Of a DNA stretch of 64,000 nucleotides, positions 23,228 through 64,000 are shown in pieces. Position 1 is the first letter of the stretch, and each line of letters begins with the position of its first letter. The stretch comes from Sabellastarte sp. h YS-2021 (taxonomy: Eukaryota; Annelida; Polychaeta; Sabellida; Sabellidae). The position numbers were made by a program, and so were the translations under genes. The stretch spans positions 9,958,496-10,022,495 of the forward strand of contig OZ024936.1 of assembly GCA_964017235.1 (NCBI GenBank), given 5' to 3'. The notes below the pieces were generated by a model. It was not told the origin of the DNA. It searched no databases and saw nothing but the letters and a program-made list of their open reading frames with translations.

Positions 23228-24499
23228 CTAGATGAATGCCAAGGAAACTACCAACACCATCGGGGTGATAGCATTTTCCTTGATAGCCAACTGAGTAGTG
23301 ACTAAATCTTGGCAACCATGAGTGGTGACTCTCCTTGGGATCCATCTGAGTAATGGATGTTTCTTTGATATATGAGTGATGGTGTGTTTCGCATCCCCCA
23401 GAGTTTTGACTGAATCCTTGAGGTCCATAAGAATGGTCAGTAGATTCTTAGTATCCATCTGAGAGATTGCTGTGTCCTGACCGTCCATGAGTGGTGGCTG
23501 TTACCTTGGCATTAAAATGAGCAGTGGTTGTCATTTGCAACCACCTGAGTGCTTCCTGTGTCATTGATATCTGAGGGAAGTGTTTGTCTTTAGCATCAGA
23601 GTTGTAACCGAATCCTGGGTGTCCAAGAGTGGTGATTGCTAAGCATCTATCTGAGAGATGGGGGTTTCCTGGGCATCTGAGTGGTGATTGCGTTCTTGTA
23701 GATCCAAGTTGTAACTTGATCTTTGGAATTGATTTGAGCATTTGATGTTTCATTGGCATCAATGTGACTGGTGACTCAATCCTCAGTCTCACTCTGTTGA
23801 TTGAATGCTTTAGCATCTGAGGAATGGTGGTCTCCTTGATCTGAGTGGTGACTGAATTCATTGGAACTATGTAAATAGTGACTCCTTGGAATTCATCTAA
23901 GTGATAGATGTTTCTTTATGAAGTACCTGAGTGATAGCCTGTGCTTGGTATCCATCCGAGTGTTGGTTGGGTCCTTTTAATCTATCTCAGCAATGGCAGT
24001 TTTCTTTTACATCCATCTGAATGATTGCTGTCTGTGAACCACCTGGCGGATTTCTTGCACTTGGCATCCATCTGAGCGATTGCTGTGTTAATGGCATCTA
24101 TTTGAGTGGTGCATGAGACTTGGGGTCCGTCTGAGTGGTTCCAGAACTTTGCATCCATGTCAGAGCTGGATTTTGCCTTGGCTTTTATGTGTTTGATCCA
24201 TCTGCATCACTGACTGTCTTTGTTGTCCATTTGAATGATGGCTACTTCCTGGAGAAATGACCCAAGTGATTGCTCTTACCTTGACAAGAATCTCGGTGCT
24301 GGCAGTTTCCTTGGCATTCATCTGAGTGATGAGTGTTTCCTTGTCGCCCAACTGATTGATTGCATGTCTTTGTCAACCATTTGCACGATTGTTGTGTAAT
24401 TGGCATCTATTTGAGTGGTGACAGTCCTTGGTATGCATCTGAGTGGCAGCAGACCTTTGCATCCATGTGACTACTAAATTTTATCCTGGCTTCTGACTG
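23228..24499 (+). repeat. Array 2 HOR unit 4 (1272 bp)
   Basis: The unit retains edge-type variants (GATAGCATT, AGTAGATTC at about 23440) in its first part and core-type sequence after about 24000. A GTTGTCATTTGC change keeps one - strand phase open for 137 codons (23448-23861), the longest open frame in the window. It is unique to this unit and has no start or splice context. Confidence 0.9.
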
Positions 24500-27400
24500 C
24501 TAGATGAATGCCAAGGAAACTACCAACACCATCGGGGTGATAACATTTTCCTTGATAGCCAACTGAGTAGTGACTAAATCTTGGCAACCATGAGTGGTGA
24601 CTCTCCTTGGGATCCATCTGAGTAATGGATGTTTCTTTGATATATGAGTGATGGCGTGTTTCGCATCCCCCAGAGTTTTGAATGAATCCTTGAGGTCCAT
24701 AAGAATGGTCATTAGATTCTTAGTATCCATCTGAGAGATTGCTGTGTCCTGAGCGTCCATGAGTGGTAGTTGTTACCTTGGCATTAAAATGAGCAGTGGC
24801 TGTGTCATTTGCAACCACCTGAGTGCTTCCTGTGTCATTGATATCTGAGGGAAGTGTTTGTCTTTAGCATCAGAGTTGTAACTGAATCCTGGGTGTCCAA
24901 GAGTGGTGATGGCTAAGCATCTATGTGAGAGATGGGGTTTCCTGGGCATCCGAGTGGTGATTTCGTTCTTGTAGATCCAAGTTGTAACTCGATCTTTGGC
25001 ATTGATTTGAGCATTTGATGTTTCATTGGCATCAATGTGACTGGTGACTCAATCCTCAGTGTCACTCTGTTGATTGAATGCTTTAGCATCTGAGGAATGG
25101 TGGTCTCCTTGATCTGAGTGGTGACTGAATTCTTTGCAACTATGTAAATAATAACTCCTTGGAAGTCATCTGAGTGATAGATGTTTCTTTATGAAGTACC
25201 TGAGTGATAGCCTGTGCTTGGTATCCATCCGAGTGTTGGTTGGGTCCTTTTAATCTATCTCAGCAATGGCAGTTTTCTTTTACATCCATCTGAATGATTG
25301 CTGTCTGTGAACCACCTGGCGGATTTCTTGCACTTGGCATCCATCTGAGCGATTGCTGTGTTAATGGCATCTATTTGAGTGGTGCATGAGACTTGGGGTC
25401 CGTCTGAGTGGTTCCAGAACTTTGCATCCATGTCAGAGCTGGATTTTGCCTTGGCTTTTATGTGTTTGATCCATCTGCATCACTGACTGTCTTTGTTGTC
25501 CATTTGAATGATGGCTACTTCCTGGAGAAATGACCCAAGTGATTGCTCTTACCTTGACAAGAATCTCGGTGCTGGCAGTTTCCTTGGCATTCATCTGAGT
25601 GATGAGTGTTTCCTTGTCACCCAACTGATTGATTGCATGTCCTTGTCAACCATTTGCACGATTGTTGTGTAATTGGCATCTATTTGAGTGGTGACAGTCC
25701 TTGGTATGCATCTGAGTGGCGGCAGACCTTTGCATCCATGTGACTACTAAATTTTATCCTGGCTTCTGACTGCTAGATGAATGCCAAGGAAACTACCAAC
25801 ACCATTGGGGTGATAACATTTTCCTTGATAGCCAACTGAGTAGTGACTAAATCTTGGCAACCATGAGTGGTGACTCTCCTTGGGATCCATCTGAGTAATG
25901 GATGTTTCTTTGATATAGGAGTGATGGTGTGCTTCGCATCCCCCGGAGTTTTGACTGAATCCTTGAGGTCCATAAGAATGGTCATTAGATTCTTAGTATC
26001 CATCTGAGAGATTGCTGTGTCCTGAGCGTCCATGAGTGGTGGCTGTTACCTTGGCATTAAAATGAGCAGTGGTTGTGTCATTTGCAACCACCTGAGTGCT
26101 TCCTGTGTCATTGATATCTGAGGGAAGTGTTTGTCTTTAGCATCAGAGTTGTAACTGAATCCTGAGTGTCCAAGAGTGGTGATGGCTAAGCATCTATGTG
26201 AGAGATGGGCTTTCCTGGGCATCCGAGTGGTGATTTCGTTCTTGTAGATCCAAGTTGTAACTCGATCTTTGGCATTGATTTGAGCATTTGATGTTTCATT
26301 GGCATCAATGTGACTGGTGACTCAATCCTCAGTGTCACTCTGTTGATTGAATGCTTTAGCATCTGAGGAATGGTGGTCTCCTTGATCTGAGTGGTGACTG
26401 AATTCTTTGCAACTATGTAAATAATAACTCCTTGGAAGTCATCTGAGTGATAGATGTTTCTTTATGAAGTACCTGAGTGATAGCCTGTGCTTGGTATCCA
26501 TCCGAGTGTTGGTTGGGTCCTTTTAATCTATCTCAGCAATGGCAGTTTTCTTTTACATCCATCTGAATGATTGCTGTCTGTGAACCACCTGGCGGATTTC
26601 TTGCACTTGGCATCCATCTGAGCGATTGCTGTGTTAATGGCATCTATTTGAGTGGTGCATGAGACTTGGGGTCCGTCTGAGTGGTTCCAGAACTTTGCAT
26701 CCATGTCAGAGCTGGATTTTGCCTTGGCTTTTATGTGTTTGATCCATCTGCATCACTGACTGTCTTTGTTGTCCATTTGAATGATGGCTACTTCCTGGAG
26801 AAATGACCCAAGTGATTGCTCTTACCTTGACAAGAATCTCGGTGCTGGCAGTTTCCTTGGCATTCATCTGAGTGATGAGTGTTTCCTTGTCACCCAACTG
26901 ATTGATTGCATGTCCTTGTCAACCATTTGCACGATTGTTGTGTAATTGGCATCTATTTGAGTGGTGACAGTCCTTGGTATGCATCTGAGTGGCGGCAGAC
27001 CTTTGCATCCATGTGACTACTAAATTTTATCCTGGCTTCTGACTGCTAGATGAATGCCAAGGAAACTACCAACACCATCGGGGTGATAACATTTTCCTTG
27101 ATAGCCAACTGAGTAGTGACTAAATCTTGGCAACCATGAGTGGTGACTCTCCTTGGGATCCATCTGAGTAATGGATGTTTCTTTGATATATGAGTGATGG
27201 TGTGCTTCGCATCCCCCAGAGTTTTGACTGAATCCTTGAGGTCCATAAGACTGGTCATTAGATTCTTAGTATCCATCTGAGAGATTGCTGTGTCCTGAGC
27301 GTCCATGAGTGGTAGTTGTTACCTTGGCATTAAAATGAGCAGTGGCTGTGTCATTTGCAACCACCTGAGTGCTTCCTGTGTCATTGATATCTGAGGGAAG

Positions 27401-30400
27401 TGTTTGTCTTTAGCATCAGAGTTGTAACTGAATCCTGGGTGTCCAAGAGTGGTGATGGCTAAGCATCTATGTGAGAGATGGGGTTTCCTGGGCATCCGAG
27501 TGGTGATTGCGTTCTTGTAGATCCAAGTTGTAACTTGATCTTTGGCATTGATTTGAGGATTTGATGTTTCATTGGCATCAATGTGACTGGTGACTCAATC
27601 CTCAGTGTCACTCTGTTGATTGAATGCTTTAGCATCTGAGGAATGGTGGTCTCCTTGATCTGAGTGGTGACTGAATTCATTGCAACTATGTAAATAATAA
27701 CTCCTTGGAAGTCATCTGAGTGATAGATGTTTCTTTATGAAGTACCTGAGTGATAGCCTGTGCTTGGTATCCATCTGAGTGTTGGTTGGGTCCTTTTAAT
27801 CTATCTCAGCAATGGCAGTTTTCTTTTACATCCATCTGAATGATTGCTGTCTGTGAACCACCTGGCGGATTTCTTGCACTTGGCATCCATCTGAGCGATT
27901 GCTGTGTTAATGGCATCTATTTGAGTGGTGCATGAGACTTGGGGTCCGTCTGAGTGGTTCCAGAACTTTGCATCCATGTCAGAGCTGGATTTTGTCTTGG
28001 CTTTTATGTCTGATCCATCTGCGTCACTGACTGTGTCTTTGTTGTCCATTTGAATGATGGCTACTTCCTGGAGAAATGACCCAAGTGATTGCTCTTACCT
28101 TGACAAGAATCTCGGTGCTGGCAGTTTCCTTGGCATTCATCTGAGTGATGAGTGTTTCCTTGTCACCCAACTGATTGATTGCATGTCCTTGTCAACCATT
28201 TGCACGATTGTTGTGTAATTGGCATCTATTTGAGTGGTGACAGTCCTTGGTATGCATCTGAGTGGCGGCAGACCTTTGCATCCATGTGACTACTAAATTT
28301 TATCCTGGCTTCTGACTGCTAGATGAATGCCAAGGAAACTACCAACACCATTGGGGTGATAACATTTTCCTTGATAGCCAACTGAGTAGTGACTAAATCT
28401 TGGCAACCATGAGTGGTGACTCTCCTTGGGATCCATCTGAGTAATGGATGTTTCTTTGATATATGAGTGATGGTGTGCTTCGCATCCCCCAGAGTTTTGA
28501 CTGAATCCTTGAGGTCCATAAGAATGGTCATTAGATTCTTAGTATCCATCTGAGAGATTGCTGTGTCCTGAGCGTCCATGAGTGGTGGCTGTTACCTTGG
28601 CATTAAAATGAGCAGTGGTTGTGTCATTTGCAACCACCTGAGTGCTTCCTGTGTCATTGATATCTGAGGGAAGTGTTTGTCTTTAGAATCAGAATTGTAA
28701 CCGAATCCTGGGTGTCCAAGAGTGGTGATGGCTAAGCATCTATGTGAGAGATGGGGTTTCCTGGGCATCCGAGTGGTGATTTCGTTCTTGTAGATCCAAG
28801 TTGTAACTTGATCTTTGGCATTGATTTGAGCATTTGATGTTTCATTGGCATCAATGTGACTGGTGACTCAATCCTCAGTGTCACTCTGTTGATTGAATGC
28901 TTTAGCATCTGAGGAATGGTGGTCTCCTTGATCTGAGTGGTGACTGAATTCATTGCAACTATGTAAATAATGACTCCTTGGAAGTCATCTGAGTGATAGA
29001 TGTTTCTTTATGAAGTACCCGAGTGATAGCCTGTGCTTGGTATCCATCCGAGTGTTGGTTGGGTCCTTTTAATCTATCTCAGCAATGGCAGTTTTCTTTT
29101 ACATCCATCTGAATGATTGCTGTCTGTGAACCACCTGGCGGATTTCTTGCACTTGGCATCCATCTGAGCGATTGCTGTGTTAATGGCATCTATTTGAGTG
29201 GTGCATGAGACTTGGGGTCCGTCTGAGTGGTTCCAGAACTTTGCATCCATGTCAGAGCTGGATTTTGCCTTGGCTTTTATGTGTTTGATCCATCTGCGTC
29301 ACTGACTGTCTTTGTTGTCCATTTGAATGATGGCTACTTCCTGGAGAAATGACCCAAGTGATTGCTCTTACCTTGACCAGAATCTCGGTGCTGGCAGTCT
29401 CCTTGGCATTCATCTGAGTGATGAGTGTTTCCTTGTCACCCAACTGATTGATTGCATGTCTTTGTCAACCATTTGCACGATTGTTGTGTAATTGGCATCT
29501 ATTTGAGTGGTGACAGTCCTTGGTATGCATCTGAGTGGCGGCAGACCTTTGCATCCATGTGACTACTAAATTTTATCCTGGCTTCTGACTGCTAGATGAA
29601 TGCCAAGGAAACTACCAACACCATTGGGGTGATAACATTTTCCTTGATAGCCAACTGAGTAGTGACTAAATCTTGGCAACCATGAGTGGTGACTCTCCTT
29701 GGGATCCATCTGAGTAATGGATGTTTCTTTGATATATGAGTGATGGTGTGCTTCGCATCCCCCAGAGTTTTGACTGAATCCTTGAGGTCCATAAGAATGG
29801 TCATTAGATTCTTAGTATCCATCTGAGAGATTGCTGTGTCCTGAGCGTCCATGAGTGGTGGCTGTTACCTTGGCATTAAAATGAGCAGTGGTTGTGTCAT
29901 TTGCAACCACCTGAGTGCTTCCTGTGTCATTGATATCTGAGGGAAGTGTTTGTCTTTAGAATCAGAATTGTAACCGAATCCTGGGTGTCCAAGAGTGGTG
30001 ATGGCTAAGCATCTATGTGAGAGATGGGGTTTCCTGGGCATCAGAGTGGTGATTTCGTTCTTGTAGATCCAAGTTGTAACTTGATCTTTGGCATTGATTT
30101 GAGCATTTGATGTTTCATTGGCATCAATGTGACTGGTGACTCAATCCTCAGTGTCACTCTGTTGATTGAATGCTTTAGCATCTGAGGAATGGTGGTCTCC
30201 TTGATCTGAGTGGTGACTGAATTCATTGCAACTATGTAAATAATGACTCCTTGGAAGTCATCTGAGTGATAGATGTTTCTTTATGAAGTACCCGAGTGAT
30301 AGCCTGTGCTTGGTATCCATCCGAGTGTTGGTTTGGTCCTTTTAATCTATCTCAGCAATGGCAGTTTTCTTTTACATCCATCTGAATGATTGCTGTCTGT

Positions 30401-30864
30401 GAACCACCTGGCGGATTTCTTGCACTTGGCATCCATCTGAGCGATTGCTGTGTTAATGGCATCTATTTGAGTGGTGCATGAGACTTGGGGTCCGTCTGAG
30501 TGGTTCCAGAACTTTGCATCCATGTCAGAGCTGGATTTTGCCTTGGCTTTTATGTGTTTGATCCATCTGCATCACTGACTGTCTTTGTTGTCCATTTGAA
30601 TGATGGCTACTTCCTGGAGAAATGACCCAAGTGATTGCTCTTACCTTGACAAGAATCTCGGTGCTGGCAGTTTCCTTGGCATTCATCTGAGTGATGAGTG
30701 TTTCCTTGTCGCCCAACTGATTGATTGCATGTCTTTGTCAACCATTTGCACGATTGTTGTGTAATTGGCATCTATTTGAGTGGTGACAGTCCTTGGTATG
30801 CATCTGAGTGGCAGCAGACCTTTGCATCCATGTGACTACTAAATTTTATCCTGGCTTCTGACTG
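24500..30864 (+). repeat. Array 2 units 5-9: five-unit block, copy 1
   Basis: Anchors lie at 24500, 25773, 27046, 28319 and 29592. Diagnostic variants in order: unit 5 GATGGCGTGTTTCGC and TTTTGAATGAATCC; unit 6 GATATAGGAGTG and CCCCGGAGTTTTG; unit 7 CATAAGACTGG and TTTGAGGATTTG; unit 9 CTTGACCAGAATC upstream and GGCATCAGAGTGG. Every one recurs exactly 6365 bp later, so this is one copy of a tandem 5 x 1273 bp duplication. Its true start lies between 23970 and about 24200. Confidence 0.92.
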
Positions 30865-33800
30865 CTAGATGAATGCCAAGGAAACTACCAACACCATCGG
30901 GGTGATAACATTTTCCTTGATAGCCAACTGAGTAGTGACTAAATCTTGGCAACCATGAGTGGTGACTCTCCTTGGGATCCATCTGAGTAATGGATGTTTC
31001 TTTGATATATGAGTGATGGCGTGTTTCGCATCCCCCAGAGTTTTGAATGAATCCTTGAGGTCCATAAGAATGGTCATTAGATTCTTAGTATCCATCTGAG
31101 AGATTGCTGTGTCCTGAGCGTCCATGAGTGGTAGTTGTTACCTTGGCATTAAAATGAGCAGTGGCTGTGTCATTTGCAACCACCTGAGTGCTTCCTGTGT
31201 CATTGATATCTGAGGGAAGTGTTTGTCTTTAGCATCAGAGTTGTAACTGAATCCTGGGTGTCCAAGAGTGGTGATGGCTAAGCATCTATGTGAGAGATGG
31301 GGTTTCCTGGGCATCCGAGTGGTGATTTCGTTCTTGTAGATCCAAGTTGTAACTCGATCTTTGGCATTGATTTGAGCATTTGATGTTTCATTGGCATCAA
31401 TGTGACTGGTGACTCAATCCTCAGTGTCACTCTGTTGATTGAATGCTTTAGCATCTGAGGAATGGTGGTCTCCTTGATCTGAGTGGTGACTGAATTCTTT
31501 GCAACTATGTAAATAATAACTCCTTGGAAGTCATCTGAGTGATAGATGTTTCTTTATGAAGTACCTGAGTGATAGCCTGTGCTTGGTATCCATCCGAGTG
31601 TTGGTTGGGTCCTTTTAATCTATCTCAGCAATGGCAGTTTTCTTTTACATCCATCTGAATGATTGCTGTCTGTGAACCACCTGGCGGATTTCTTGCACTT
31701 GGCATCCATCTGAGCGATTGCTGTGTTAATGGCATCTATTTGAGTGGTGCATGAGACTTGGGGTCCGTCTGAGTGGTTCCAGAACTTTGCATCCATGTCA
31801 GAGCTGGATTTTGCCTTGGCTTTTATGTGTTTGATCCATCTGCATCACTGACTGTCTTTGTTGTCCATTTGAATGATGGCTACTTCCTGGAGAAATGACC
31901 CAAGTGATTGCTCTTACCTTGACAAGAATCTCGGTGCTGGCAGTTTCCTTGGCATTCATCTGAGTGATGAGTGTTTCCTTGTCACCCAACTGATTGATTG
32001 CATGTCCTTGTCAACCATTTGCACGATTGTTGTGTAATTGGCATCTATTTGAGTGGTGACAGTCCTTGGTATGCATCTGAGTGGCGGCAGACCTTTGCAT
32101 CCATGTGACTACTAAATTTTATCCTGGCTTCTGACTGCTAGATGAATGCCAAGGAAACTACCAACACCATTGGGGTGATAACATTTTCCTTGATAGCCAA
32201 CTGAGTAGTGACTAAATCTTGGCAACCATGAGTGGTGACTCTCCTTGGGATCCATCTGAGTAATGGATGTTTCTTTGATATAGGAGTGATGGTGTGCTTC
32301 GCATCCCCCGGAGTTTTGACTGAATCCTTGAGGTCCATAAGAATGGTCATTAGATTCTTAGTATCCATCTGAGAGATTGCTGTGTCCTGAGCGTCCATGA
32401 GTGGTGGCTGTTACCTTGGCATTAAAATGAGCAGTGGTTGTGTCATTTGCAACCACCTGAGTGCTTCCTGTGTCATTGATATCTGAGGGAAGTGTTTGTC
32501 TTTAGCATCAGAGTTGTAACTGAATCCTGAGTGTCCAAGAGTGGTGATGGCTAAGCATCTATGTGAGAGATGGGCTTTCCTGGGCATCCGAGTGGTGATT
32601 TCGTTCTTGTAGATCCAAGTTGTAACTCGATCTTTGGCATTGATTTGAGCATTTGATGTTTCATTGGCATCAATGTGACTGGTGACTCAATCCTCAGTGT
32701 CACTCTGTTGATTGAATGCTTTAGCATCTGAGGAATGGTGGTCTCCTTGATCTGAGTGGTGACTGAATTCTTTGCAACTATGTAAATAATAACTCCTTGG
32801 AAGTCATCTGAGTGATAGATGTTTCTTTATGAAGTACCTGAGTGATAGCCTGTGCTTGGTATCCATCCGAGTGTTGGTTGGGTCCTTTTAATCTATCTCA
32901 GCAATGGCAGTTTTCTTTTACATCCATCTGAATGATTGCTGTCTGTGAACCACCTGGCGGATTTCTTGCACTTGGCATCCATCTGAGCGATTGCTGTGTT
33001 AATGGCATCTATTTGAGTGGTGCATGAGACTTGGGGTCCGTCTGAGTGGTTCCAGAACTTTGCATCCATGTCAGAGCTGGATTTTGCCTTGGCTTTTATG
33101 TGTTTGATCCATCTGCATCACTGACTGTCTTTGTTGTCCATTTGAATGATGGCTACTTCCTGGAGAAATGACCCAAGTGATTGCTCTTACCTTGACAAGA
33201 ATCTCGGTGCTGGCAGTTTCCTTGGCATTCATCTGAGTGATGAGTGTTTCCTTGTCACCCAACTGATTGATTGCATGTCCTTGTCAACCATTTGCACGAT
33301 TGTTGTGTAATTGGCATCTATTTGAGTGGTGACAGTCCTTGGTATGCATCTGAGTGGCGGCAGACCTTTGCATCCATGTGACTACTAAATTTTATCCTGG
33401 CTTCTGACTGCTAGATGAATGCCAAGGAAACTACCAACACCATCGGGGTGATAACATTTTCCTTGATAGCCAACTGAGTAGTGACTAAATCTTGGCAACC
33501 ATGAGTGGTGACTCTCCTTGGGATCCATCTGAGTAATGGATGTTTCTTTGATATATGAGTGATGGTGTGCTTCGCATCCCCCAGAGTTTTGACTGAATCC
33601 TTGAGGTCCATAAGACTGGTCATTAGATTCTTAGTATCCATCTGAGAGATTGCTGTGTCCTGAGCGTCCATGAGTGGTAGTTGTTACCTTGGCATTAAAA
33701 TGAGCAGTGGCTGTGTCATTTGCAACCACCTGAGTGCTTCCTGTGTCATTGATATCTGAGGGAAGTGTTTGTCTTTAGCATCAGAGTTGTAACTGAATCC

Positions 33801-36800
33801 TGGGTGTCCAAGAGTGGTGATGGCTAAGCATCTATGTGAGAGATGGGGTTTCCTGGGCATCCGAGTGGTGATTGCGTTCTTGTAGATCCAAGTTGTAACT
33901 TGATCTTTGGCATTGATTTGAGGATTTGATGTTTCATTGGCATCAATGTGACTGGTGACTCAATCCTCAGTGTCACTCTGTTGATTGAATGCTTTAGCAT
34001 CTGAGGAATGGTGGTCTCCTTGATCTGAGTGGTGACTGAATTCATTGCAACTATGTAAATAATAACTCCTTGGAAGTCATCTGAGTGATAGATGTTTCTT
34101 TATGAAGTACCTGAGTGATAGCCTGTGCTTGGTATCCATCTGAGTGTTGGTTGGGTCCTTTTAATCTATCTCAGCAATGGCAGTTTTCTTTTACATCCAT
34201 CTGAATGATTGCTGTCTGTGAACCACCTGGCGGATTTCTTGCACTTGGCATCCATCTGAGCGATTGCTGTGTTAATGGCATCTATTTGAGTGGTGCATGA
34301 GACTTGGGGTCCGTCTGAGTGGTTCCAGAACTTTGCATCCATGTCAGAGCTGGATTTTGTCTTGGCTTTTATGTCTGATCCATCTGCGTCACTGACTGTG
34401 TCTTTGTTGTCCATTTGAATGATGGCTACTTCCTGGAGAAATGACCCAAGTGATTGCTCTTACCTTGACAAGAATCTCGGTGCTGGCAGTTTCCTTGGCA
34501 TTCATCTGAGTGATGAGTGTTTCCTTGTCACCCAACTGATTGATTGCATGTCCTTGTCAACCATTTGCACGATTGTTGTGTAATTGGCATCTATTTGAGT
34601 GGTGACAGTCCTTGGTATGCATCTGAGTGGCGGCAGACCTTTGCATCCATGTGACTACTAAATTTTATCCTGGCTTCTGACTGCTAGATGAATGCCAAGG
34701 AAACTACCAACACCATTGGGGTGATAACATTTTCCTTGATAGCCAACTGAGTAGTGACTAAATCTTGGCAACCATGAGTGGTGACTCTCCTTGGGATCCA
34801 TCTGAGTAATGGATGTTTCTTTGATATATGAGTGATGGTGTGCTTCGCATCCCCCAGAGTTTTGACTGAATCCTTGAGGTCCATAAGAATGGTCATTAGA
34901 TTCTTAGTATCCATCTGAGAGATTGCTGTGTCCTGAGCGTCCATGAGTGGTGGCTGTTACCTTGGCATTAAAATGAGCAGTGGTTGTGTCATTTGCAACC
35001 ACCTGAGTGCTTCCTGTGTCATTGATATCTGAGGGAAGTGTTTGTCTTTAGAATCAGAATTGTAACCGAATCCTGGGTGTCCAAGAGTGGTGATGGCTAA
35101 GCATCTATGTGAGAGATGGGGTTTCCTGGGCATCCGAGTGGTGATTTCGTTCTTGTAGATCCAAGTTGTAACTTGATCTTTGGCATTGATTTGAGCATTT
35201 GATGTTTCATTGGCATCAATGTGACTGGTGACTCAATCCTCAGTGTCACTCTGTTGATTGAATGCTTTAGCATCTGAGGAATGGTGGTCTCCTTGATCTG
35301 AGTGGTGACTGAATTCATTGCAACTATGTAAATAATGACTCCTTGGAAGTCATCTGAGTGATAGATGTTTCTTTATGAAGTACCCGAGTGATAGCCTGTG
35401 CTTGGTATCCATCCGAGTGTTGGTTGGGTCCTTTTAATCTATCTCAGCAATGGCAGTTTTCTTTTACATCCATCTGAATGATTGCTGTCTGTGAACCACC
35501 TGGCGGATTTCTTGCACTTGGCATCCATCTGAGCGATTGCTGTGTTAATGGCATCTATTTGAGTGGTGCATGAGACTTGGGGTCCGTCTGAGTGGTTCCA
35601 GAACTTTGCATCCATGTCAGAGCTGGATTTTGCCTTGGCTTTTATGTGTTTGATCCATCTGCGTCACTGACTGTCTTTGTTGTCCATTTGAATGATGGCT
35701 ACTTCCTGGAGAAATGACCCAAGTGATTGCTCTTACCTTGACCAGAATCTCGGTGCTGGCAGTCTCCTTGGCATTCATCTGAGTGATGAGTGTTTCCTTG
35801 TCACCCAACTGATTGATTGCATGTCTTTGTCAACCATTTGCACGATTGTTGTGTAATTGGCATCTATTTGAGTGGTGACAGTCCTTGGTATGCATCTGAG
35901 TGGCGGCAGACCTTTGCATCCATGTGACTACTAAATTTTATCCTGGCTTCTGACTGCTAGATGAATGCCAAGGAAACTACCAACACCATTGGGGTGATAA
36001 CATTTTCCTTGATAGCCAACTGAGTAGTGACTAAATCTTGGCAACCATGAGTGGTGACTCTCCTTGGGATCCATCTGAGTAATGGATGTTTCTTTGATAT
36101 ATGAGTGATGGTGTGCTTCGCATCCCCCAGAGTTTTGACTGAATCCTTGAGGTCCATAAGAATGGTCATTAGATTCTTAGTATCCATCTGAGAGATTGCT
36201 GTGTCCTGAGCGTCCATGAGTGGTGGCTGTTACCTTGGCATTAAAATGAGCAGTGGTTGTGTCATTTGCAACCACCTGAGTGCTTCCTGTGTCATTGATA
36301 TCTGAGGGAAGTGTTTGTCTTTAGAATCAGAATTGTAACCGAATCCTGGGTGTCCAAGAGTGGTGATGGCTAAGCATCTATGTGAGAGATGGGGTTTCCT
36401 GGGCATCAGAGTGGTGATTTCGTTCTTGTAGATCCAAGTTGTAACTTGATCTTTGGCATTGATTTGAGCATTTGATGTTTCATTGGCATCAATGTGACTG
36501 GTGACTCAATCCTCAGTGTCACTCTGTTGATTGAATGCTTTAGCATCTGAGGAATGGTGGTCTCCTTGATCTGAGTGGTGACTGAATTCATTGCAACTAT
36601 GTAAATAATGACTCCTTGGAAGTCATCTGAGTGATAGATGTTTCTTTATGAAGTACCCGAGTGATAGCCTGTGCTTGGTATCCATCCGAGTGTTGGTTTG
36701 GTCCTTTTAATCTATCTCAGCAATGGCAGTTTTCTTTTACATCCATCTGAATGATTGCTGTCTGTGAACCACCTGGCGGATTTCTTGCACTTGGCATCCA

Positions 36801-37229
36801 TCTGAGCGATTGCTGTGTTAATGGCATCTATTTGAGTGGTGCATGAGACTTGGGGTCCGTCTGAGTGGTTCCAGAACTTTGCATCCATGTCAGAGCTGGA
36901 TTTTGCCTTGGCTTTTATGTGTTTGATCCATCTGCGTCACTGACTGTCTTTGTTGTCCATTTGAATGATGGCTACTTCCTGGAGAAATGACCCAAGTGAT
37001 TGCTCTTACCTTGACAAGAATCTCGGTGCTGGCAGTTTCCTTGGCATTCATCTGAGTGATGAGTGTTTCCTTGTCACCCAACTGATTGATTGCATGTCTT
37101 TGTCAACCATTTGCACGATTGTTGTGTAATTGGCATCTATTTGAGTGGTGACAGTCCTTGGTATGCATCTGAGTGGCGGCAGACCTTTGCATCCATGTGA
37201 CTACTAAATTTTATCCTGGCTTCTGACTG
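30865..37229 (+). repeat. Array 2 units 10-14: five-unit block, copy 2
   Basis: Anchors lie at 30865, 32138, 33411, 34684 and 35957. The block repeats the variant series of units 5-9. The shared tract is bounded on the left by 30334 (T here, G at 23969) and on the right by 36936 (G here, A at 30571). It can therefore be up to about 6600 bp long per copy. I saw no difference inside it on spot checks. Confidence 0.92.
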
Positions 37230-48300: not shown

Positions 48301-49959
48301 TGAGACTTGGGGTCCGTCTGAGTGGTTCCAGAACTTTGCATCCATGTCAGAGCTGGATTTTGCCTTGGCTTTTATGTGTTTGATCCATCTGCGTCACTGA
48401 CTGTCTTTGTTGTCCATTTGAATGATGGCTACTTCCTGGAGAAATGACCCAAGTGATTACTCTTACCTTGACAAGAATCTCGGTGCTGGCAGTTTCCTTG
48501 GCATTCATCTGAGTGATGAGTGTTTCCTTGTCACCCAACTGATTGATTGCATGTCTTTGTCAACCATTTGCACGATTGTTGTGTAATTGGCATCTATTTG
48601 AGTGGTGACAGTCCTTGGTATGCATCTGAGTGGCGGCAGACCTTTGCATCCATGTGACGACTAAATTTTATCCTGGCTTCTGACTGCTAGATGAATGCCA
48701 AGGAAACTACCAACACCATTGGGGTGATAACATTTTCCTTGATAGCCAACTGAGTAGTGACTAAATCTTGGCAACTATGAGTGGTGACTCTCCTTGGGAT
48801 CCATCTGAGTAATGGATGTTTCTTTGATATATGAGTGATGGTGTGCTTCGCATCCCCCAGAGTTTTGACTGAATCCTTGAGGTCCATAAGAATGGTCATT
48901 AGATTCTTAGTATCCATCTGAGAGATTGCTGTGTCCTGAGCGTCCATGAGTGGTGGCTGTTACCTTGGCATTAAAATGAGCAGTGGTTGTGTCATTTGCA
49001 ACCACCTGAGTGCTTCCTGTGTCATTGATATCTGAGGGAAGTGTTTGTCTTTAGAATCAGAATTGTAACCGAATCCTGGGTGTCCAAGAGTGGTGATGGC
49101 TAAGCATCTATGTGAGAGATGGGGTTTCCTGGGCATCCGAGTGGTGATTTCGTTCTTGTAGATCCAAGTTGTAACTTGATCTTTGGCATTGATTTGAGCA
49201 TTTGATGTTTCATTGGCATCAATGTGACTGGTGACTCAATCCTCAGTGTCACTCTGTTGATTGAATGCTTTAGCATCTGAGGAATGGTGGTCTCCTTGAT
49301 CTGAGTGGTGACTGAATTCATTGCAACTATGTAAATAATGACTCCTTGGAAGTCATCTGAGTGATAGATGTTTCTTTATGAAGTACCCGAGTGATAGCCT
49401 GTGCTTGGTATCCATCCGAGTGTTGGTTGGGTCCTTTTAATCTATCTCAGCAATGGCAGTTTTCTTTTACATCCATCTGAATGATTGCTGTCTGTGAACC
49501 ACCTGGCGGATTTCTTGCACTTGGCATCCATCTGAGCGATTGCTGTGTTAATGGCATCTATTTGAGTGGTGCATGAGACTTGGGGTCCGTCTGAGTGGTT
49601 CCAGAACTTTGCATCCATGCCAGAGCTGGATTTTGCCTTGGCTTTTATGTGTTTGATCCATCTGCGTCACTGACTGTCTTTGTTGTCCATTTGAATGATG
49701 GCTACTTCCTGGAGAAATGACCCAAGTGATTGCTCTTACCTTGACAAGAATCTCGGTGCTGGCAGTTTCCTTGGCATTCATCTGAGTGATGAGTGTTTCC
49801 TTGTCACCCAACTGATTGATTGCATGTCTTTGTCAACCATTTGCACGATTGTTGTGTAATTGGCATCTATTTGAGTGGTGACAGTCCTTGGTATGCATCT
49901 GAGTGGCGGCAGACCTTTGCATCCATGTGACTACTAAATTTTATCCTGGCTTCTGACTG
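42322..49959 (+). repeat. Array 2 units 19-24: dimeric (2546-bp) higher-order pattern
   Basis: Alternate units carry two linked variants. GTGACGACTAAAT has its variant G at 43567, 46113 and 48659. GGCAACTATGAG has its variant T at 43684, 46230 and 48776. The base in GTGTG[C/T]TTCGCATC also alternates T, C, T, C, T, C from unit 19 to unit 24. The homogenising unit in this part was therefore two 1273-bp units, repeated three times. Confidence 0.92.
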
Positions 49960-52900
49960 CTAGATGAATGCCAAGGAAACTACCAACACCATTGGGGTGA
50001 TAACATTTTCCTTGATAGCCAACTGAGTAGTGACTAAATCTTGGCAACCATGAGTGGTGACTCTCCTTGGGATCCATCTGAGTAATGGATGTTTCTTTGA
50101 TATATGAGTGATGGTGTGTTTCGCATCCCCCAGAGTTTTGACTGAATCCTTGAGGTCCATAAGAATGGTCATTAGATTCTTAGTATCCATCTGAGAGATT
50201 GCTGTGTCCTGAGCGTCCATGAGTGGTGGCTGTTACCTTGGCATTAAAATGAGCAGTGGTTGTGTCATTTGCAACCACCTGAATGCTTCCTGTGTCATTG
50301 ATATCTGAGGGAAGTGTTTGTCTTTAGAATCAGAATTGTAACCGAATCCTGGGTGTCCAAGAGTGGTGATGGCTAAGCATCTATGTGAGAGATGGGGTTT
50401 CCTGGGCATCCGAGTGGTGATTTCGTTCTTGTAGATCCAAGTTGTAACTTGATCTTTGGCATTGATTTGAGCATTTGATGTTTCATTGGCATCAATGTGA
50501 CTGGTGACTCAATCCTCAGTGTCACTCTGTTGATTGAATGCTTTAGCATCTGAGGAATGGTGGTCTCCTTGATCTGAGTGGTGACTGAATTCATTGCAAC
50601 TATGTAAATAATGACTCCTTGGAAGTCATCTGAGTGATAGATGTTTCTTTATGAAGTACTCGAGTGATAGCCTGTGCTTGGTATCCATCCGAGTGTTGGT
50701 TGGGTCCTTTTAATCTATCTCAGCAATGGCAGTTTTCTTTTACATCCATCTGAATGATTGCTGTCTGTGAACCACCTGGCGGATTTCTTGCACTTGGCAT
50801 CCATCTGAGCGATTGCTGTGTTAATGGCATCTATTTGAGTGGTGCATGAGACTTGGGGTCCGTCTGAGTGATTCCAGAACTTTGCATCCATGTCAGAGCT
50901 GGATTTTGCCTTGGCTTTTATGTGTTTGATCCATCTGCGTCACTGACTGTCTTTGTTGTCCATTTGAATGATGGCTACTTCCTGGAGAAATGACCCAAGT
51001 GATTGCTCTTACCTTGACAAGAATCTCGGTGCTGGCAGTTTCCTTGGCATTCATCTGAGTGATGAGTGTTTCCTTGTCACCCAACTGATTGATTGCATGT
51101 CTTTGTCAACCATTTGCACGATTGTTGTGTAATTGGCATCTATTTGAGTGGTGACAGTCCTTGGTATGCATCTGAGTGGCGGCAGACCTTTGCATCCATG
51201 TGACTACTAAATTTTATCCTGGCTTCTGACTGCTAGATGAATGCCAAGGAAACTACCAACACCATTGGGGTGATAACATTTTCCTTGATAGCCAACTGAG
51301 TAGTGACTAAATCTTGGCAACCATGAGTGGTGACTCTCCTTTGGATCCATCTGAGTAATGGATGTTTCTTTGATATATGAGTGATGGTGTGTTTCGCATC
51401 CCCCAGAGTTTTGACTGAATCCTTGAGGTCCATAAGAATGGTCATTAGATTCTTAGTATCCATCTGAGAGATTGCTGTGTCCTGAGCGTCCATGAGTGGT
51501 GGCTGTTACCTTGGCATTAAAATGAGCAGTGGTTGTGTCATTTGCAACCACCTGAGTGCTTCCTGTGTTATTGATATCTGAGGGAAGTGTTTGTCTTTAG
51601 AATCAGAATTGTAACCGAATCCTGGGTGTCCAAGAGTGGTGATGGCTAAGCATCTATGTGAGAGATGGGGTTTCCTGGGCATCCGAGTGGTGATTTCGTT
51701 CTTGTAGATCCAAGTTGTAACTTGATCTTTGGCATTGATTTGAGCATTTGATGTTTCATTGGCATCAATGTGACTGGTGACTCAATCCTCAGTGTCAATC
51801 TGTTGATTGAATGCTTTAGCATCTGAGGAATGGTGGTCTCCTTGATCTGAGTGGTGACTGAATTCATTGCAACTATGTAAATAGTGACTCCTTGGAAGTC
51901 ATCTGAGTGATAGATGTTTCTTTATGAAGTACCTGAGTGATAGCCTGTGCTTGGTATCCATCCGAGTGTTGGTTGGGTCCTTTTAATCTATCTCAGCAAT
52001 GGCAGTTTTCTTTTACATCCATTTGAATGATTGCTGTCTGTGAACCACCTGGCGGATTTCTTGCACTTGGCATCCATCTGAGCGATTGCTGTGTTAATGG
52101 CATCTATTTGAGTGGTGCATGAGACTTGGGGTCCGTCTGAGTGGTTCCAGAACTTTGCATCCATGTCAGAGCTGGATTTTGCCTTGGCTTTTATGTGTTT
52201 GATCCATCTGCGTCACTGACTGTCTTTGTTGTCCATTTGAATGATGGCTACTTCCTGGAGAAATGACCCAAGTGATTGCTCTTACCTTGACAAGAATCTC
52301 GGTGCTGGCAGTTTCCTTGGCATTCATCTGAGTGATGAGTGTTTCCTTGTCACCCAACTGATTGATTGCATGTCTTTGTCAACCATTTGCACGATTGTTG
52401 TGTAATTGGCATCTATTTGAGTGGTGACAGTCCTTGGTATGCATCTGAGTGGCGGCAGACCTTTGCATCCATGTGACTACTAAATTTTATCCTGGCTTCT
52501 GACTGCTAGATGAATGCCAAGGAAACTACCAACACCATTGGGGTGATAACATTTTCCTTGATAGCCAACTGAGTAGTGACTAAATCTTGGCAACCATGAG
52601 TGGTGACTCTCCTTGGGATCCATCTGAGTAATGGATGTTTCTTTGATATATGAGTGATGGTGTGTTTCGCATCCCCCAGAGTTTTGACTGAATCCTTGAG
52701 GTCCATAAGAATGGTCATTAGATTCTTAGTATCCATCTGAGAGATTGCTGTGTCCTGAGCGTCCATGAGTGGTGGCTGTTACCTTGGCATTAAAATGAGC
52801 AGTGGTTGTGTCATTTGCAACCACCTGAGTGCTTCCTGTGTCATTGATATCTGAGGGAAGTGTTTGTCTTTAGAATCAGAATTGTAACCGAATCCTGGGT

Positions 52901-55900
52901 GTCCAAGAGTGGTGATGGCTAAGCATCTATGTGAGAGATGGGGTTTCCTGGGCATCCGAGTGGTGATTTCGTTCTTGTAGATCCAAGTTGTAACTTGATC
53001 TTTGGCATTGATTTGAGCATTTGATGTTTCATTGGCATCAATGTGACTGGTGACTCAATCCTCAGTGTCACTCTGTTGATTGAATGCTTTAGCATCTGAG
53101 GAATGGTGGTCTCCTTGATCTGAGTGGTGACTGAATTCATTGCAACTATGTAAATAATGACTCCTTGGAAGTCATCTGAGTGATAGATGTTTCTTTATGA
53201 AGTACCCGAGTGATAGCCTGTGCTTGGTATCCATCCGAGTGTTGGTTGGGTCCTTTTAATCTATCTCAGCAATGGCAGTTTTCTTTTACATCCATCTGAA
53301 TGATTGCTGTCTGTGAACCACCTGGCGGATTTCTTGCACTTGGCATCCATCTGAGCGATTGCTGTGTTAATGGCATCTATTTGAGTGGTGCATGAGACTT
53401 GGGGTCCGTCTGAGTGGTTCCAGAACTTTGCATCCATGCCAGAGCTGGATTTTGCCTTGGCTTTTATGTGTTTGATCCATCTGCGTCACTGACTGTCTTT
53501 GTTGTCCATTTGAATGATGGCTACTTCCTGGAGAAATGACCCAAGTGATTGCTCTTACCTTGACAAGAATCTCGGTGCTGGCAGTTTCCTTGGCATTCAT
53601 CTGAGTGATGAGTGTTTCCTTGTCACCCAACTGATTGATTGCATGTCTTTGTCAACCATTTGCACGATTGTTGTGTAATTGGCATCTATTTGAGTGGTGA
53701 CAGTCCTTGGTATGCATCTGAGTGGCGGCAGACCTTTGCATCCATGTGACTACTAAATTTTATCCTGGCTTCTGACTGCTAGATGAATGCCAAGGAAACT
53801 ACCAACACCATTGGGGTGATAACATTTTCCTTGATAGCCAACTGAGTAGTGACTAAATCTTGGCAACCATGAGTGGTGACTCTCCTTGGGATCCATCTGA
53901 GTAATGGATGTTTCTTTGATATATGAGTGATGGTGTGTTTCGCATCCCCCAGAGTTTTGACTGAATCCTTGAGGTCCATAAGAATGGTCATTAGATTCTT
54001 AGTATCCATCTGAGAGATTGCTGTGTCCTGAGCGTCCATGAGTGGTGGCTGTTACCTTGGCATTAAAATGAGCAGTGGTTGTGTCATTTGCAACCACCTG
54101 AGTGCTTCCTGTGTCATTGATATCTGAGGGAAGTGTTTGTCTTTAGAATCAGAATTGTAACCGAATCCTGGGTGTCCAAGAGTGGTGATGGCTAAGCATC
54201 TATGTGAGAGATGGGGTTTCCTGGGCATCCGAGTGGTGATTTCGTTCTTGTAGATCCAAGTTGTAACTTGATCTTTGGCATTGATTTGAGCATTTGATGT
54301 TTCATTGGCATCAATGTGACTGGTGACTCAATCCTCAGTGTCACTCTGTTGATTGAATGCTTTAGCATCTGAGGAATGGTGGTCTCCTTGATCTGAGTGG
54401 TGACTGAATTCATTGCAACTATGTAAATAGTGACTCCTTGGAAGTCATCTGAGTGATAGATGTTTCTTTATGAAGTACCTGAGTGATAGCCTGTGCTTGG
54501 TATCCATCCGAGTGTTGGTTGGGTCCTTTTAATCTATCTCAGCAATGGCAGTTTTCTTTTACATCCATCTGAATGATTGCTGTCTGTGAACCACCTGGCG
54601 GATTTCTTGCACTTGGCATCCATCTGAGCGATTGCTGTGTTAATGGCATCTATTTGAGTGGTGCATGAGACTTGGGGTCCGTCTGAGTGGTTCCAGAACT
54701 TTGCATCCATGTCAGAGCTGGATTTTGCCTTGGCTTTTATGTGTTTGATCCATCTGCGTCACTGACTGTCTTTGTTGTCCATTTGAATGATGGCTACTTC
54801 CTGGAGAAATGACCCAAGTGATTGCTCTTACCTTGACAAGAATCTCGGTGCTGGCAGTTTCCTTGGCATTCATCTGAGTGATGAGTGTTTCCTTGTCACC
54901 CAACTGATTGATTGCATGTCTTTGTCAACCATTTGCACGATTGTTGTGTAATTGGCATCTATTTGAGTGGTGACAGTCTTTGGTATGCATCTGAGTGGCG
55001 GCAGACCTTTGCATCCATGTGACTACTAAATTTTATCCTGGCTTCTGACTGCTAGATGAATGCCAAGGAAACTACCAACACCATTGGGGTGATAACATTT
55101 TCCTTGATAGCCAACTGAGTAGTGACTAAATCTTGGCAACCATGAGTGGGGACTCTCCTTGGGATCCATCTGAGTAATGGATGTTTCTTTGATATATGAG
55201 TGATGGTGTGCTTCGCATCCCCCAGAGTTTTGACTGAATCCTTGAGGTCCATAAGAATGGTCATTAGATTCTTAGTATCCATCTGAGAGATTGCTGTGTC
55301 CTAAGCGTCCATGAGTGGTGGCTGTTACCTTGGCATTAAAATGAGCAGTGGTTGTGTCATTTGCAACCACCTGAGTGCTTCCTGTGTCATTGATATCTGA
55401 GGGAAGTGTTTGTCTTTAGAATCAGAATTGTAACCGAATCCTGGGTGACCAAGAGTGGTGATGGCTAAGCATCTATGTGAGAGATGGGGTTTCCTGGGCA
55501 TCCGAGTGGTGATTTCGTTCTTGTAGATCCAAGTTGTAACTTGATCTTTGGCATTGATTTGAGCATTTGATGTTTCATTGGCATCAATGTGACTGGTGAC
55601 TCAATCCTCAGTGTCACTCTGTTGATTGAATGCTTTAGCATCTGAGGAATGGTGGTCTCCTTGATCTGAGTGGTGACTGAATTCATTGCAACTATGTAAA
55701 TAATGACTCCTTGGAAGTCATCTGAGTGATAGATGTTTCTTTATGAAGTACCCGAGTGATAGCCTGTGCTTGGTATCCATCCGAGTGTTGGTTGGGTCCT
55801 TTTAATCTATCTCAGCAATGGCAGTTTTCTTTTACATCCATCTGAATGATTGCTGTCTGTGAACCACCTGGCGGATTTCTTGCACTTGGCATCCATCTGA

Positions 55901-57597
55901 GCGATTGCTGTGTTAATGGCATCTATTTGAGTGGTGCATGAGACTTGGGGTCCGTCTGAGTGGTTCCAGAACTTTGCATCCATGTCAGAGCTGGATTTTG
56001 CCTTGGCTTGTATGTGTTTGATCCATCTGCGTCACTGACTGTCTTTGTTGTCCATTTGAATGATGGCTACTTCCTGGAGAAATGACCCAAGTGATTGCTC
56101 TTACCTTGACAAGAATCTCGGTGCTGGCAGTTTCCTTGGCATTCATCTGAGTGATGAGTGTTTCCTTGTCACCCAACTGATTGATTGCATGTCTTTGTCA
56201 ACCATTTGCACGATTGTTGTGTAATTGGCATCTATTTGAGTGGTGACAGTCCTTGGTATGCATCTGAGTGGCGGCAGACCTTTGCATCCATGTGACTACT
56301 AAATTTTATCCTGGCTTCTGACTGCTAGATGAATGCCAAGGAAACTACCAACACCATTGGGGTGATAACATTTTCCTTGATAGCCAACTGAGTAGTGACT
56401 AAATCTTGGCAACCATGAGTGGTGACTCTCCTTGGGATCCATCTGAGTAATGGATGTTTCTTTGATATATGAGTTATGGTGTGCTTCGCATCCCCCAGAG
56501 TTTTGACTGAATCCTTGAGGTCCATAAGAATGGTCATTAGATTCTTAGTATCCATCTGAGAGATTGCTGTGTCCTGAGCGTCCATGAGTGGTGGCTGTTA
56601 CCTTGGCATTAAAATGAGCAGTGGTTGTGTCATTTGCAACCACCTGAGTGCTTCCTGTGTCATTGATATCTGAGGGAAGTGTTTGTCTTTAGAATCAGAA
56701 TTGTAACCGAATCCTGGGTGTCCAAGAGTGGTGATGGCTAAGCATCTATGTGAGAGATGGGGTTTCCTGGGCATCCGAGTGGTGATTTCGTTCTTGTAGA
56801 TCCAAGTTGTAACTTGATCTTTGGCATTGATTTGAGCATTTGATGTTTCATTGGCATCAATGTGACTGGTGACTCAATCCTCAGTGTCACTCTGTTGATT
56901 GAATGCTTTAGCATCTGAGGAATGGTGGTCTCCTTGATCTGAGTGGTGACTGAATTCATTGCAACTATGTAAATAGTGACTCCTTGGAAGTCATCTGAGT
57001 GATAGATGTTTCTTTATGAAGTACCCGAGTGATAGCCTGTGCTTGGTATCCATCCGAGTGTTGGTTGGGTCCTTTTAATCTATCTCAGCAATGGCAGTTT
57101 TCTTTTACATCCATCTGAATGATTGCTGTCTGTGAACCACCTGGCGGATTTCTTGCACTTGGCATCCATCTGAGCGATTGCTGTGTTAATGGCATCTATT
57201 TGAGTGGTGCATGAGACTTGGGGTCCGTCTGAGTGGTTCCAGAACTTTGCATCCATGTCAGAGCTGGATTTTGCCTTGGCTTTTATGTGTTTGATCCATC
57301 TGCGTCACTGACTGTCTTTGTTGTCCATTTGAATGATGGCTACTTCCTGGAGAAATGACCCAAGTGATTGCTCTTACCTTGACAAGAATCTCGGTGCTGG
57401 CAGTTTCCTTGGCATTCATCTGAGTGATGAGTGTTTCCTTGTCACCCAACTGATTGATTGCATGTCTTTGTCAACCATTTGCACGATTGTTGTGTAATTG
57501 GCATCTATTTGAGTGGTGACAGTCCTTGGTATGCATCTGAGTGGCGGCAGACCTTTGCATCCATGTGACTACTAAATTTTATCCTGGCTTCTGACTG
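49960..57597 (+). repeat. Array 2 units 25-30: six-unit block
   Basis: Anchors lie at 49960, 51233, 52506, 53779, 55052 and 56325. Markers: AAGTACTCGAG (T at 50660), GAGTGATTCC (A at 50871), CTGTGTTATTG (T at 51569), GTGTCAATCTG (A at 51798), CATTTGAATG (T at 52023), GAGTGGGGAC (G at 55150), GGGTGACCAAG (A at 55448) and GGCTTGTATG (G at 56010). All recur in the next block. ATGCCAGAGC at 49617 and 53436 marks an additional three-unit (3819-bp) spacing. Confidence 0.92.
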
Positions 57598-60500
57598 CTA
57601 GATGAATGCCAAGGAAACTACCAACACCATTGGGGTGATAACATTTTCCTTGATAGCCAACTGAGTAGTGACTAAATCTTGGCAACCATGAGTGGTGACT
57701 CTCCTTGGGATCCATCTGAGTAATGGATGTTTCTTTGATATATGAGTGATGGTGTGTTTCGCATCCCCCAGAGTTTTGACTGAATCCTTGAGGTCCATAA
57801 GAATGGTCATTAGATTCTTAGTATCCATCTGAGAGATTGCTGTGTCCTGAGCGTCCATGAGTGGTGGCTGTTACCTTGGCATTAAAATGAGCAGTGGTTG
57901 TGTCATTTGCAACCACCTGAGTGCTTCCTGTGTCATTGATATCTGAGGGAAGTGTTTGTCTTTAGAATCAGAATTGTAACCGAATCCTGGGTGTCCAAGA
58001 GTGGTGATGGCTAAGCATCTATGTGAGAGATGGGGTTTCCTGGGCATCCGAGTGGTGATTTCGTTCTTGTAGATCCAAGTTGTAACTTGATCTTTGGCAT
58101 TGATTTGAGCATTTGATGTTTCATTGGCATCAATGTGACTGGTGACTCAATCCTCAGTGTCACTCTGTTGATTGAATGCTTTAGCATCTGAGGAATGGTG
58201 GTCTCCTTGATCTGAGTGGTGACTGAATTCATTGCAACTATGTAAATAATGACTCCTTGGAAGTCATCTGAGTGATAGATGTTTCTTTATGAAGTACTCG
58301 AGTGATAGCCTGTGCTTGGTATCCATCCGAGTGTTGGTTGGGTCCTTTTAATCTATCTCAGCAATGGCAGTTTTCTTTTACATCCATCTGAATGATTGCT
58401 GTCTGTGAACCACCTGGCGGATTTCTTGCACTTGGCATCCATCTGAGCGATTGCTGTGTTAATGGCATCTATTTGAGTGGTGCATGAGACTTGGGGTCCG
58501 TCTGAGTGATTCCAGAACTTTGCATCCATGTCAGAGCTGGATTTTGCCTTGGCTTTTATGTGTTTGATCCATCTGCGTCACTGACTGTCTTTGTTGTCCA
58601 TTTGAATGATGGCTACTTCCTGGAGAAATGACCCAAGTGATTGCTCTTACCTTGACAAGAATCTCGGTGCTGGCAGTTTCCTTGGCATTCATCTGAGTGA
58701 TGAGTGTTTCCTTGTCACCCAACTGATTGATTGCATGTCTTTGTCAACCATTTGCACGATTGTTGTGTAATTGGCATCTATTTGAGTGGTGACAGTCCTT
58801 GGTATGCATCTGAGTGGCGGCAGACCTTTGCATCCATGTGACTACTAAATTTTATCCTGGCTTCTGACTGCTAGATGAATGCCAAGGAAACTACCAACAC
58901 CATTGGGGTGATAACATTTTCCTTGATAGCCAACTGAGTAGTGACTAAATCTTGGCAACCATGAGTGGTGACTCTCCTTGGGATCCATCTGAGTAATGGA
59001 TGTTTCTTTGATATATGAGTGATGGTGTGTTTCGCATCCCCCAGAGTTTTGACTGAATCCTTGAGGTCCATAAGAATGGTCATTACATTCTTAGTATCCA
59101 TCTGAGAGATTGCTGTGTCCTGAGCGTCCATGAGTGGTGGCTGTTACCTTGGCATTAAAATGAGCAGTGGTTGTGTCATTTGCAACCACCTGAGTGCTTC
59201 CTGTGTTATTGATATCTGAGGGAAGTGTTTGTCTTTAGAATCAGAATTGTAACCGAATCCTGGGTGTCCAAGAGTGGTGATGGCTAAGCATCTATGTGAG
59301 AGATGGGGTTTCCTGGGCATCCGAGTGGTGATTTCGTTCTTGTAGATCCAAGTTGTAACTTGATCTTTGGCATTGATTTGAGCATTTGATGTTTCATTGG
59401 CATCAATGTGACTGGTGACTCAATCCTCAGTGTCAATCTGTTGATTGAATGCTTTAGCATCTGAGGAATGGTGGTCTCCTTGATCTGAGTGGTGACTGAA
59501 TTCATTGCAACTATGTAAATAGTGACTCCTTGGAAGTCATCTGAGTGATAGATGTTTCTTTATGAAGTACCTGAGTGATAGCCTGTGCTTGGTATCCATC
59601 CGAGTGTTGGTTGGGTCCTTTTAATCTATCTCAGCAATGGCAGTTTTCTTTTACATCCATTTGAATGATTGCTGTCTGTGAACCACCTGGCGGATTTCTT
59701 GCACTTGGCATCCATCTGAGCGATTGCTGTGTTAATGGCATCTATTTGAGTGGTGCATGAGACTTGGGGTCCGTCTGAGTGGTTCCAGAACTTTGCATCC
59801 ATGTCAGAGCTGGATTTTGCCTTGGCTTTTATGTGTTTGATCCATCTGCGTCACTGACTGTCTTTGTTGTCCATTTGAATGATGGCTACTTCCTGGAGAA
59901 ATGACCCAAGTGATTGCTCTTACCTTGACAAGAATCTCGGTGCTGGCAGTTTCCTTGGCATTCATCTGAGTGATGAGTGTTTCCTTGTCACCCAACTGAT
60001 TGATTGCATGTCTTTGTCAACCATTTGCACGATTGTTGTGTAATTGGCATCTATTTGAGTGGTGACAGTCCTTGGTATGCATCTGAGTGGCGGCAGACCT
60101 TTGCATCCATGTGACTACTAAATTTTATCCTGGCTTCTGACTGCTAGATGAATGCCAAGGAAACTACCAACACCATTGGGGTGATAACATTTTCCTTGAT
60201 AGCCAACTGAGTAGTGACTAAATCTTGGCAACCATGAGTGGTGACTCTCCTTGGGATCCATCTGAGTAATGGATGTTTCTTTGATATATGAGTGATGGTG
60301 TGTTTCGCATCCCCCAGAGTTTTGACTGAATCCTTGAGGTCCATAAGAATGGTCATTAGATTCTTAGTATCCATCTGAGATTGCTGTGTCCTGAGCGTCC
60401 ATGAGTGGTGGCTGTTACCTTGGCATTAAAATGAGCAGTGGTTGTGTCATTTGCAACCACCTGAGTGCTTCCTGTGTCATTGATATCTGAGGGAAGTGTT

Positions 60501-63956: not shown

Positions 63957-64000
63957 CTAGATGAATGCCAAGGAAACTACCAACACCATTGGGGTGATAA
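63957..64000 (+). repeat. Array 2 unit 36, cut by the window edge
   Basis: The anchor CTAGATGAATGCC recurs at 63957, 1273 bp after the previous one, so the array continues beyond the window. Confidence 0.95.

Follow-up and report, generated by a model that had tools for sequence, protein, structure and literature searches.

The window analysed here is a stretch of 64,000 nucleotides from the sabellid annelid Sabellastarte sp. h YS-2021 (GCA_964017235.1, contig OZ024936.1, hereafter C14; C14:9958496-10022495, within a genome of 1.786 Gb in 647 contigs). It contains a genuine higher-order-repeat (HOR) array, array B, in which a unit of 1273 bp made of mutually diverged 30-bp monomers is repeated head to tail. 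Its structure is nested, its monomer word is common to several loci, identity within the array is far higher than between loci, and blocks of it have been duplicated exactly. The explanation which we favour, and consider very probable, is that array B belongs to a non-coding, neutral satellite family which descends from a 30-bp founder and has been homogenised locally into HORs private to each locus.

The array was followed by counting exact matches to the anchor CTAGATGAATGCC, which occurs 36 times in the window and 0 times in 100 shuffles. The initial annotation, made from the letters of the window, had an anchor returning every 1273 bp over 28 intervals with no net change of length, and every spacing from 24500 to 60144 is indeed exactly 1273 bp. 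The constancy of length does not hold for six irregular units elsewhere in array B, in which there are indels (1, 2, 4 and 18 bp) and an internal duplication of 220 bp. The four anchor spacings preceding 24500 are 1254, 1274, 1497 and 1272 bp, and the two beyond 60144 are 1271 and 1269 bp, after which the spacing is again 1273 bp. With both flanks included array B counts 46 successive anchors, 39 of the 45 spacings being exactly 1273 bp, and the interval first described is therefore about 60% of an array that overshoots the window end by ~14.8 kb; its left edge, at 18.2-19.2 kb, is diverged. The autocorrelation of array B has its peaks at 1273 (0.944), at multiples of that length, and at 30 (0.383). 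Array B lies at 9.9-10.0 of the 99.7 Mb of C14. Genome-wide the exact anchor has 58 matches, 46 in the array B cluster and 12 isolated, against 6 for the reversed control, a count which misses units lacking the exact anchor.

The inner structure of the unit was examined by wrap-around alignment of one unit to a 30-mer, which scored 1111.5 compared to 305.9 +- 25.8 for 20 shuffles; at the threshold used, all 30-mer matches inside the arrays are on one strand. The initial annotation had stated that the monomers are themselves diverged and that the unit, not the monomer, is copied, and both statements are borne out. The 43 array B monomers that were scored (rows having more than 6 gaps were dropped) are on average 58.6% identical to each other and 73% identical to the word TTGGCATCCATCTGAGTGATGGCTGTGTCC. 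The pairwise comparison of window units that had been proposed as a check gave a mean identity of 99.05% with 0-40 differences per pair, for the 29 of 35 units which are exactly 1273 bp long. Among the 28 core units (units 12-41 minus two of other length) the mean rises to 99.56%, with 0-12 differences per pair and 44 variable sites. Because units are 99.56% identical and monomers 58.6%, the 1273-bp unit is the object that has been copied. Thus array B has diverged monomers placed head to tail, a unit identity far above the monomer identity, and many contiguous units.

Table 1. Features of the window (positions count from its first letter).
Feature	Position	Strand	Remarks
Array A, right part	1..12638	+	same 30-bp family; units of ~1153/1157/1440/1706 bp composed of ~290-bp rows
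AT-rich spacer between arrays A and B	12639..18199	.	own older tandem repeats of ~600 and ~1242 bp
Array B, 1273-bp HOR	18200..64000 in window	+	extends beyond the window to ~78760 (C14 ~10037250)
220-bp tandem duplication within a single unit	21991..22428	+	gives the 1497-bp spacing
6601-bp exact direct repeat, copy 1	23970..30570	+	lag 6365 (5 units)
6601-bp exact direct repeat, copy 2	30335..36935	+	lag 6365 (5 units)
29 consecutive anchors	24500..60156	+	28 spacings of exactly 1273 bp; anchor match starts 24500 to 60144
Representative unit	30865..32137	+	~43-45 monomers with consensus TTGGCATCCATCTGAGTGATGGCTGTGTCC, most of them 24-31 bp long
Two units with deletions (2 bp and 4 bp)	60144..62683	+	spacings 1271 and 1269

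Homogenisation varies along array B, and the fit to its consensus is poorest toward both ends. For rows starting outside window positions 26000 to 58000, the left-end units are 96.4% and 97.4% identical to the consensus, followed by a unit split in two (its parts at 94.4 and 97.9%) and one at 98.1%; at the right end three units are at 99.0%, one at 98.6% and one partial unit at 97.2%, and 11 interior rows between 58871 and 72867 are at 99.4-99.9%. Units 4-7 are exactly the same as units 9-12, and apart from the 6601-bp repeat there are two further exact repeats of 2758 and 2027 bp at a lag of 2546 (2 units); these three are all the exact repeats of at least 2 kb in array B. In the core, all four combinations are found at 13 of 153 informative site pairs, as unit-to-unit exchange or recurrent mutation would give. 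Taken together the patterns are in keeping with unequal exchange and conversion acting along the array, and with a block duplicated now and then, a mechanism that we infer from them.

The description of a young, homogenised HOR thus stands as far as it goes, but array B is not an isolated array: array A is its neighbour within the window, and among its diverged relatives at other places is a nearly uniform 30-bp array. Array A starts ~42.5 kb upstream of the window (C14 ~9915990). Its 38 anchors, found when up to 8 mismatches of 53 were tolerated, give 37 intervals, mostly of 1153, 1157, ~1440 and ~1706 bp, and the interval lengths 1153, 1444 and 1735 step by 291, which is the period of the rows within the unit. 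The order ~1440/1153/1157/1706 (5455-5460 bp) occurs 5 times in the 37 intervals, three of them consecutive; when the interval classes were shuffled 10000 times the count never reached 5. Exact identity extends over at most 10090 bp, at a lag of 5460. Array A is thus nested on four levels, with periods of 30 bp, ~290 bp, 1.15-1.7 kb and 5.46 kb. Its left edge is broken by ~310 bp of other sequence which, judged by eye, looks like a short insertion (C14 ~9916376-9916690).

A search of the source genome, which had also been proposed, recovered array B together with diverged relatives on C6, C15 and C18; like C14, these are chromosome-size contigs or named as such. Searching with unit B located array A and relatives at 138.28-138.33 Mb of C6 (of 143.6 Mb) and at 2.78-2.87, 5.74 and 6.65-6.71 Mb of C18. 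These results are lower bounds, since very common words were skipped and array B itself was not listed. Protein and pattern searches added C15 at 0.35-0.40 Mb, where three family matches (C15:349572, 365176 and 396274) are separated by 15.6 and 31.1 kb, a hint of a ~15.5-kb repeat in which a copy of the 30-mer stretch is included. The core 24-mer, allowing up to 3 mismatches, has 319 forward and 22 reverse matches in the genome and 0 for the reversed control; among the matches listed, all places are on C6, C14, C15 and C18. The C6, C14 and C18 loci each lie within ~10 Mb of a contig end, a placement that may be fortuitous.

The relatives differ in period and in uniformity. On C6 the units are ~1160 bp long, the longest self-match is 94.5% identical and other pairs are 81-96% identical. 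They are colinear with positions 724-1246 and 1-348 of unit B at 67-77% identity, and because of this colinearity part of the unit order seems to be older than the separate arrays. At 2.854 Mb of C18 the period is 417 bp and is strongest at the double, 833; within 2.800-2.841 Mb, lags of 23105 and 21022 bp separate recurring matches, suggesting large super-repeats above the 417-bp HOR. The array at 5.745 Mb of C18 is nearly uniform, with 35.1 copies of 30 bp at 91% matches and a mean pairwise identity of 92% among 34 scored monomers. The consensus monomers of arrays A and B, C6 and two C18 loci are 0-2 bases from one 30-mer (several units were pooled for the consensus of C6 and of C18 at 2.854 Mb).

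The history we propose starts with an ancestral 30-bp minisatellite, TTGGCATCCATCTGAGTGATGGCTGTGTCC, which would have dispersed to loci of at least four contigs (C6, C14, C15, C18). At the loci that became HORs the monomer copies would have diverged, by ~27-29% from TTGGCATCCATCTGAGTGATGGCTGTGTCC, after which segments of several monomers may have been amplified head to tail. Local homogenisation through unequal exchange or block duplication, plus gene conversion, would then have produced units private to each locus: 1273 bp and ~1440/5460 bp on C14, ~1160 bp on C6 and ~417 bp on C18. The order of these events, the recombination mechanism and the absence of a selected function are inferred. One may go further and suppose that a single genome keeps the successive stages of HOR birth from one 30-bp minisatellite, with the uniform array at 5.745 Mb of C18, the moderately homogenised array of C6 (94.5% in its best stretch), the strongly homogenised array B, and the multi-level array A and C18 at 2.8 Mb as the stages. 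We put this extension forward tentatively, as a possibility somewhat short of even chances.

Four other explanations have to be weighed. The arrays could be repeats inside a mobile element that carried them between chromosomes. The presence of related arrays on four contigs, the colinearity of C14 and C6 units, and frames of piggyBac-like and reverse-transcriptase type close to the C14 locus would all agree with this, but the closest such frame is ~4 kb outside array A, the spacer has only short patches (45-134 bp) in common with the right flank, and no element ends were seen at the two outer edges inspected by eye; we find such transport unlikely. A little less probable still is a functional macrosatellite comparable to DXZ4 or D4Z4, acting as a chromatin boundary or as a source of non-coding RNA with a selected copy number. 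It would be in keeping with the clustering of anchor-bearing units at one place, with a unit above 1 kb and with the strong strand asymmetry. The best CTCF-like motif in the unit, however, matches 11 of 14 positions where shuffles reach 10.9 on average and 13 at most, the window has no Rfam match at the gathering score, and both sequence and length of the unit vary among loci. An assembly artefact, by which a short array was over-expanded or made too regular, is what the exact repetition over 6.6 kb in B and 10.1 kb in A might bring to mind. Against it, the 204 kb examined contain no N, the units bear distinguishing substitutions (the 44 variable sites of the core), just three exact repeats in B attain 2 kb and the longest of them is 6.6 kb, the outer ends of A and B pass into other sequence, and HORs of the same family but with other periods are found on other contigs; an artefact is accordingly very unlikely.

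The least probable of the four, to the point of being highly improbable, is that the arrays are, or derive from, a gene for a repetitive protein. Read on its minus strand, the 30-mer gives the decapeptide ETAITQMDAK, array A repeatedly holds open minus-strand frames of 86-87 amino acids consisting of ~8 decapeptides, 32 of 115 matches are of full or nearly full length without stops, and C18 has an open frame of 269 amino acids. Weak support comes also from third positions, which are the least conserved in that minus-strand frame. On the other hand 1273 is not divisible by 3, the monomer length varies, a single translated minus-strand frame of a unit has many stops, the remaining two minus-strand frames on C18 are likewise open, and the two array frames which were scanned gave no Pfam match. 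What decides the matter is synonymous change: in the HOR arrays (84 of 94 monomers, near-duplicates dropped) 146 of 618 changes are synonymous while 142.1 are expected by column permutation (p 0.41), which is no excess; for the uniform array of C18, tested on the 13 of its 34 monomers that are distinct variants free of gaps, 4 synonymous changes are found among 23 distinct ones, as compared to 21% of all possible changes. A coding origin was rejected on these two tests.

To return to a neutral satellite family homogenised locally, several observations count against it. Core units at a distance of 1-3 are not more similar than random pairs (p 0.32), and in the absence of this neighbour effect the core is not explained by simple recent local duplication, although the exact blocks do fit duplication. 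The interior is not evenly homogenised either: units at 27046 and 33411 carry 35 differences from the consensus, many of them in one short cluster, and those at 24500/30865 carry 16. The closeness of the consensus monomers is open to bias, as every locus was aligned to that same 30-mer, which pulls the consensus toward agreement. The third-position pattern, found in one minus-strand frame of both arrays, belongs here as well, negative synonymous tests notwithstanding. Finally, the direction of evolution is unproven: instead of being the founder state, the uniform C18 array could have arisen by a recent re-amplification.

The surroundings of the arrays hold repeats of other kinds. In the spacer the best repeat pair is 13057-15788 with 13706-16391, 78.7% identical, and there is a perfect 34-bp tandem duplication at 15314-15383; at the threshold used, the spacer at 14-18 kb has no 30-mer matches. 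About 16 kb to the left of array A, at C14:9888496-~9900000, GC-rich (~50%) blocks of a 25-bp minisatellite, CAGCCGCCACAGCCTGCCATGCCTG, lie within longer repeats, and this stretch is another composite tandem repeat built on a different word. The transposon frames in the flanks comprise a PF13843 transposase, which we take to be of piggyBac type, and two PF00078 reverse transcriptases, the second below the cut-off (L009 1849-3218; L021 3-1145; L022 8528-9124). ARAGORN found no tRNA genes in the window, and CpG observed/expected is low (0.17-0.39) over the six stretches measured.

HORs of short monomers are already known, and the value of the present case is the apparent set of stages within one genome. 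Debate on the origin of HORs mostly draws on primate centromeres, whose very long arrays are bound up with centromere function. Compact loci which apparently share one 30-bp founder word and differ in period and in homogenisation are a natural set of replicates, and this would test whether unequal exchange alone yields nested hierarchies. If one genome does hold these stages, local exchange would lead to nesting in general, and nesting would not be peculiar to centromeres. In addition, exact internal duplications of 6-10 kb are hard cases for assemblers.

Macrosatellites such as D4Z4 and DXZ4 are long tandem arrays, each at one locus, with units of more than 1 kb. Array B resembles them in unit size, in its length and in having 46 of 58 exact anchors in one cluster; it differs in that its unit is a decayed minisatellite in which no gene or insulator motif was found. 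Because the anchor-bearing units cluster at one locus, "macrosatellite-like" may suit array B better than "centromeric satellite". Alpha satellite is a centromeric family with a 171-bp monomer. Its HORs are likewise built of diverged monomers, but the period here is 30 bp instead of ~171 bp, and the CENP-B pattern has 0 exact matches in the window, with 0.02 expected by chance. The cascading alpha satellite HORs of human chromosome 3, as excerpted from their description, have rows of repeated monomer types within the unit (PMC11157248), and these resemble the ~290-bp rows of array A. A second human family, HSat1A, is pericentromeric and differs from array B in its monomer, which is 42 bp, yet it too is a short-monomer satellite with higher-order nesting. 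In the part of its description drawn on here, its 42-unit repeat has a higher-order organisation in which nested 9-mers predominate (PMC9909926). Part of a paper on bivalves discusses subrepeats as a source of HOR units (PMC5874043). Closest in build, judged by organisation alone and from partial accounts, is ruminant satellite I. In those accounts deer satellite I has 31-bp subrepeats within monomers of 0.8-1 kb, and for bovid satellite I the same origin has been postulated (PMC7288315, PMC7835801); satellite I is described as centromeric and present throughout deer species, and a subrepeat is closer to its counterpart at the same position than to the others in its own unit (PMC7288315, PMC7835801). 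The novelty that the initial annotation implied for an HOR on a monomer of ~30 bp is thus not sustained, given satellite I and HSat1A as these sources present them. Satellite I of cervids and bovids has a period of 31 where the present one is 30, and it is centromeric where the anchor-bearing units lie at one locus here, but as far as these accounts go the build seems alike: diverged short subrepeats in a unit of ~1 kb.

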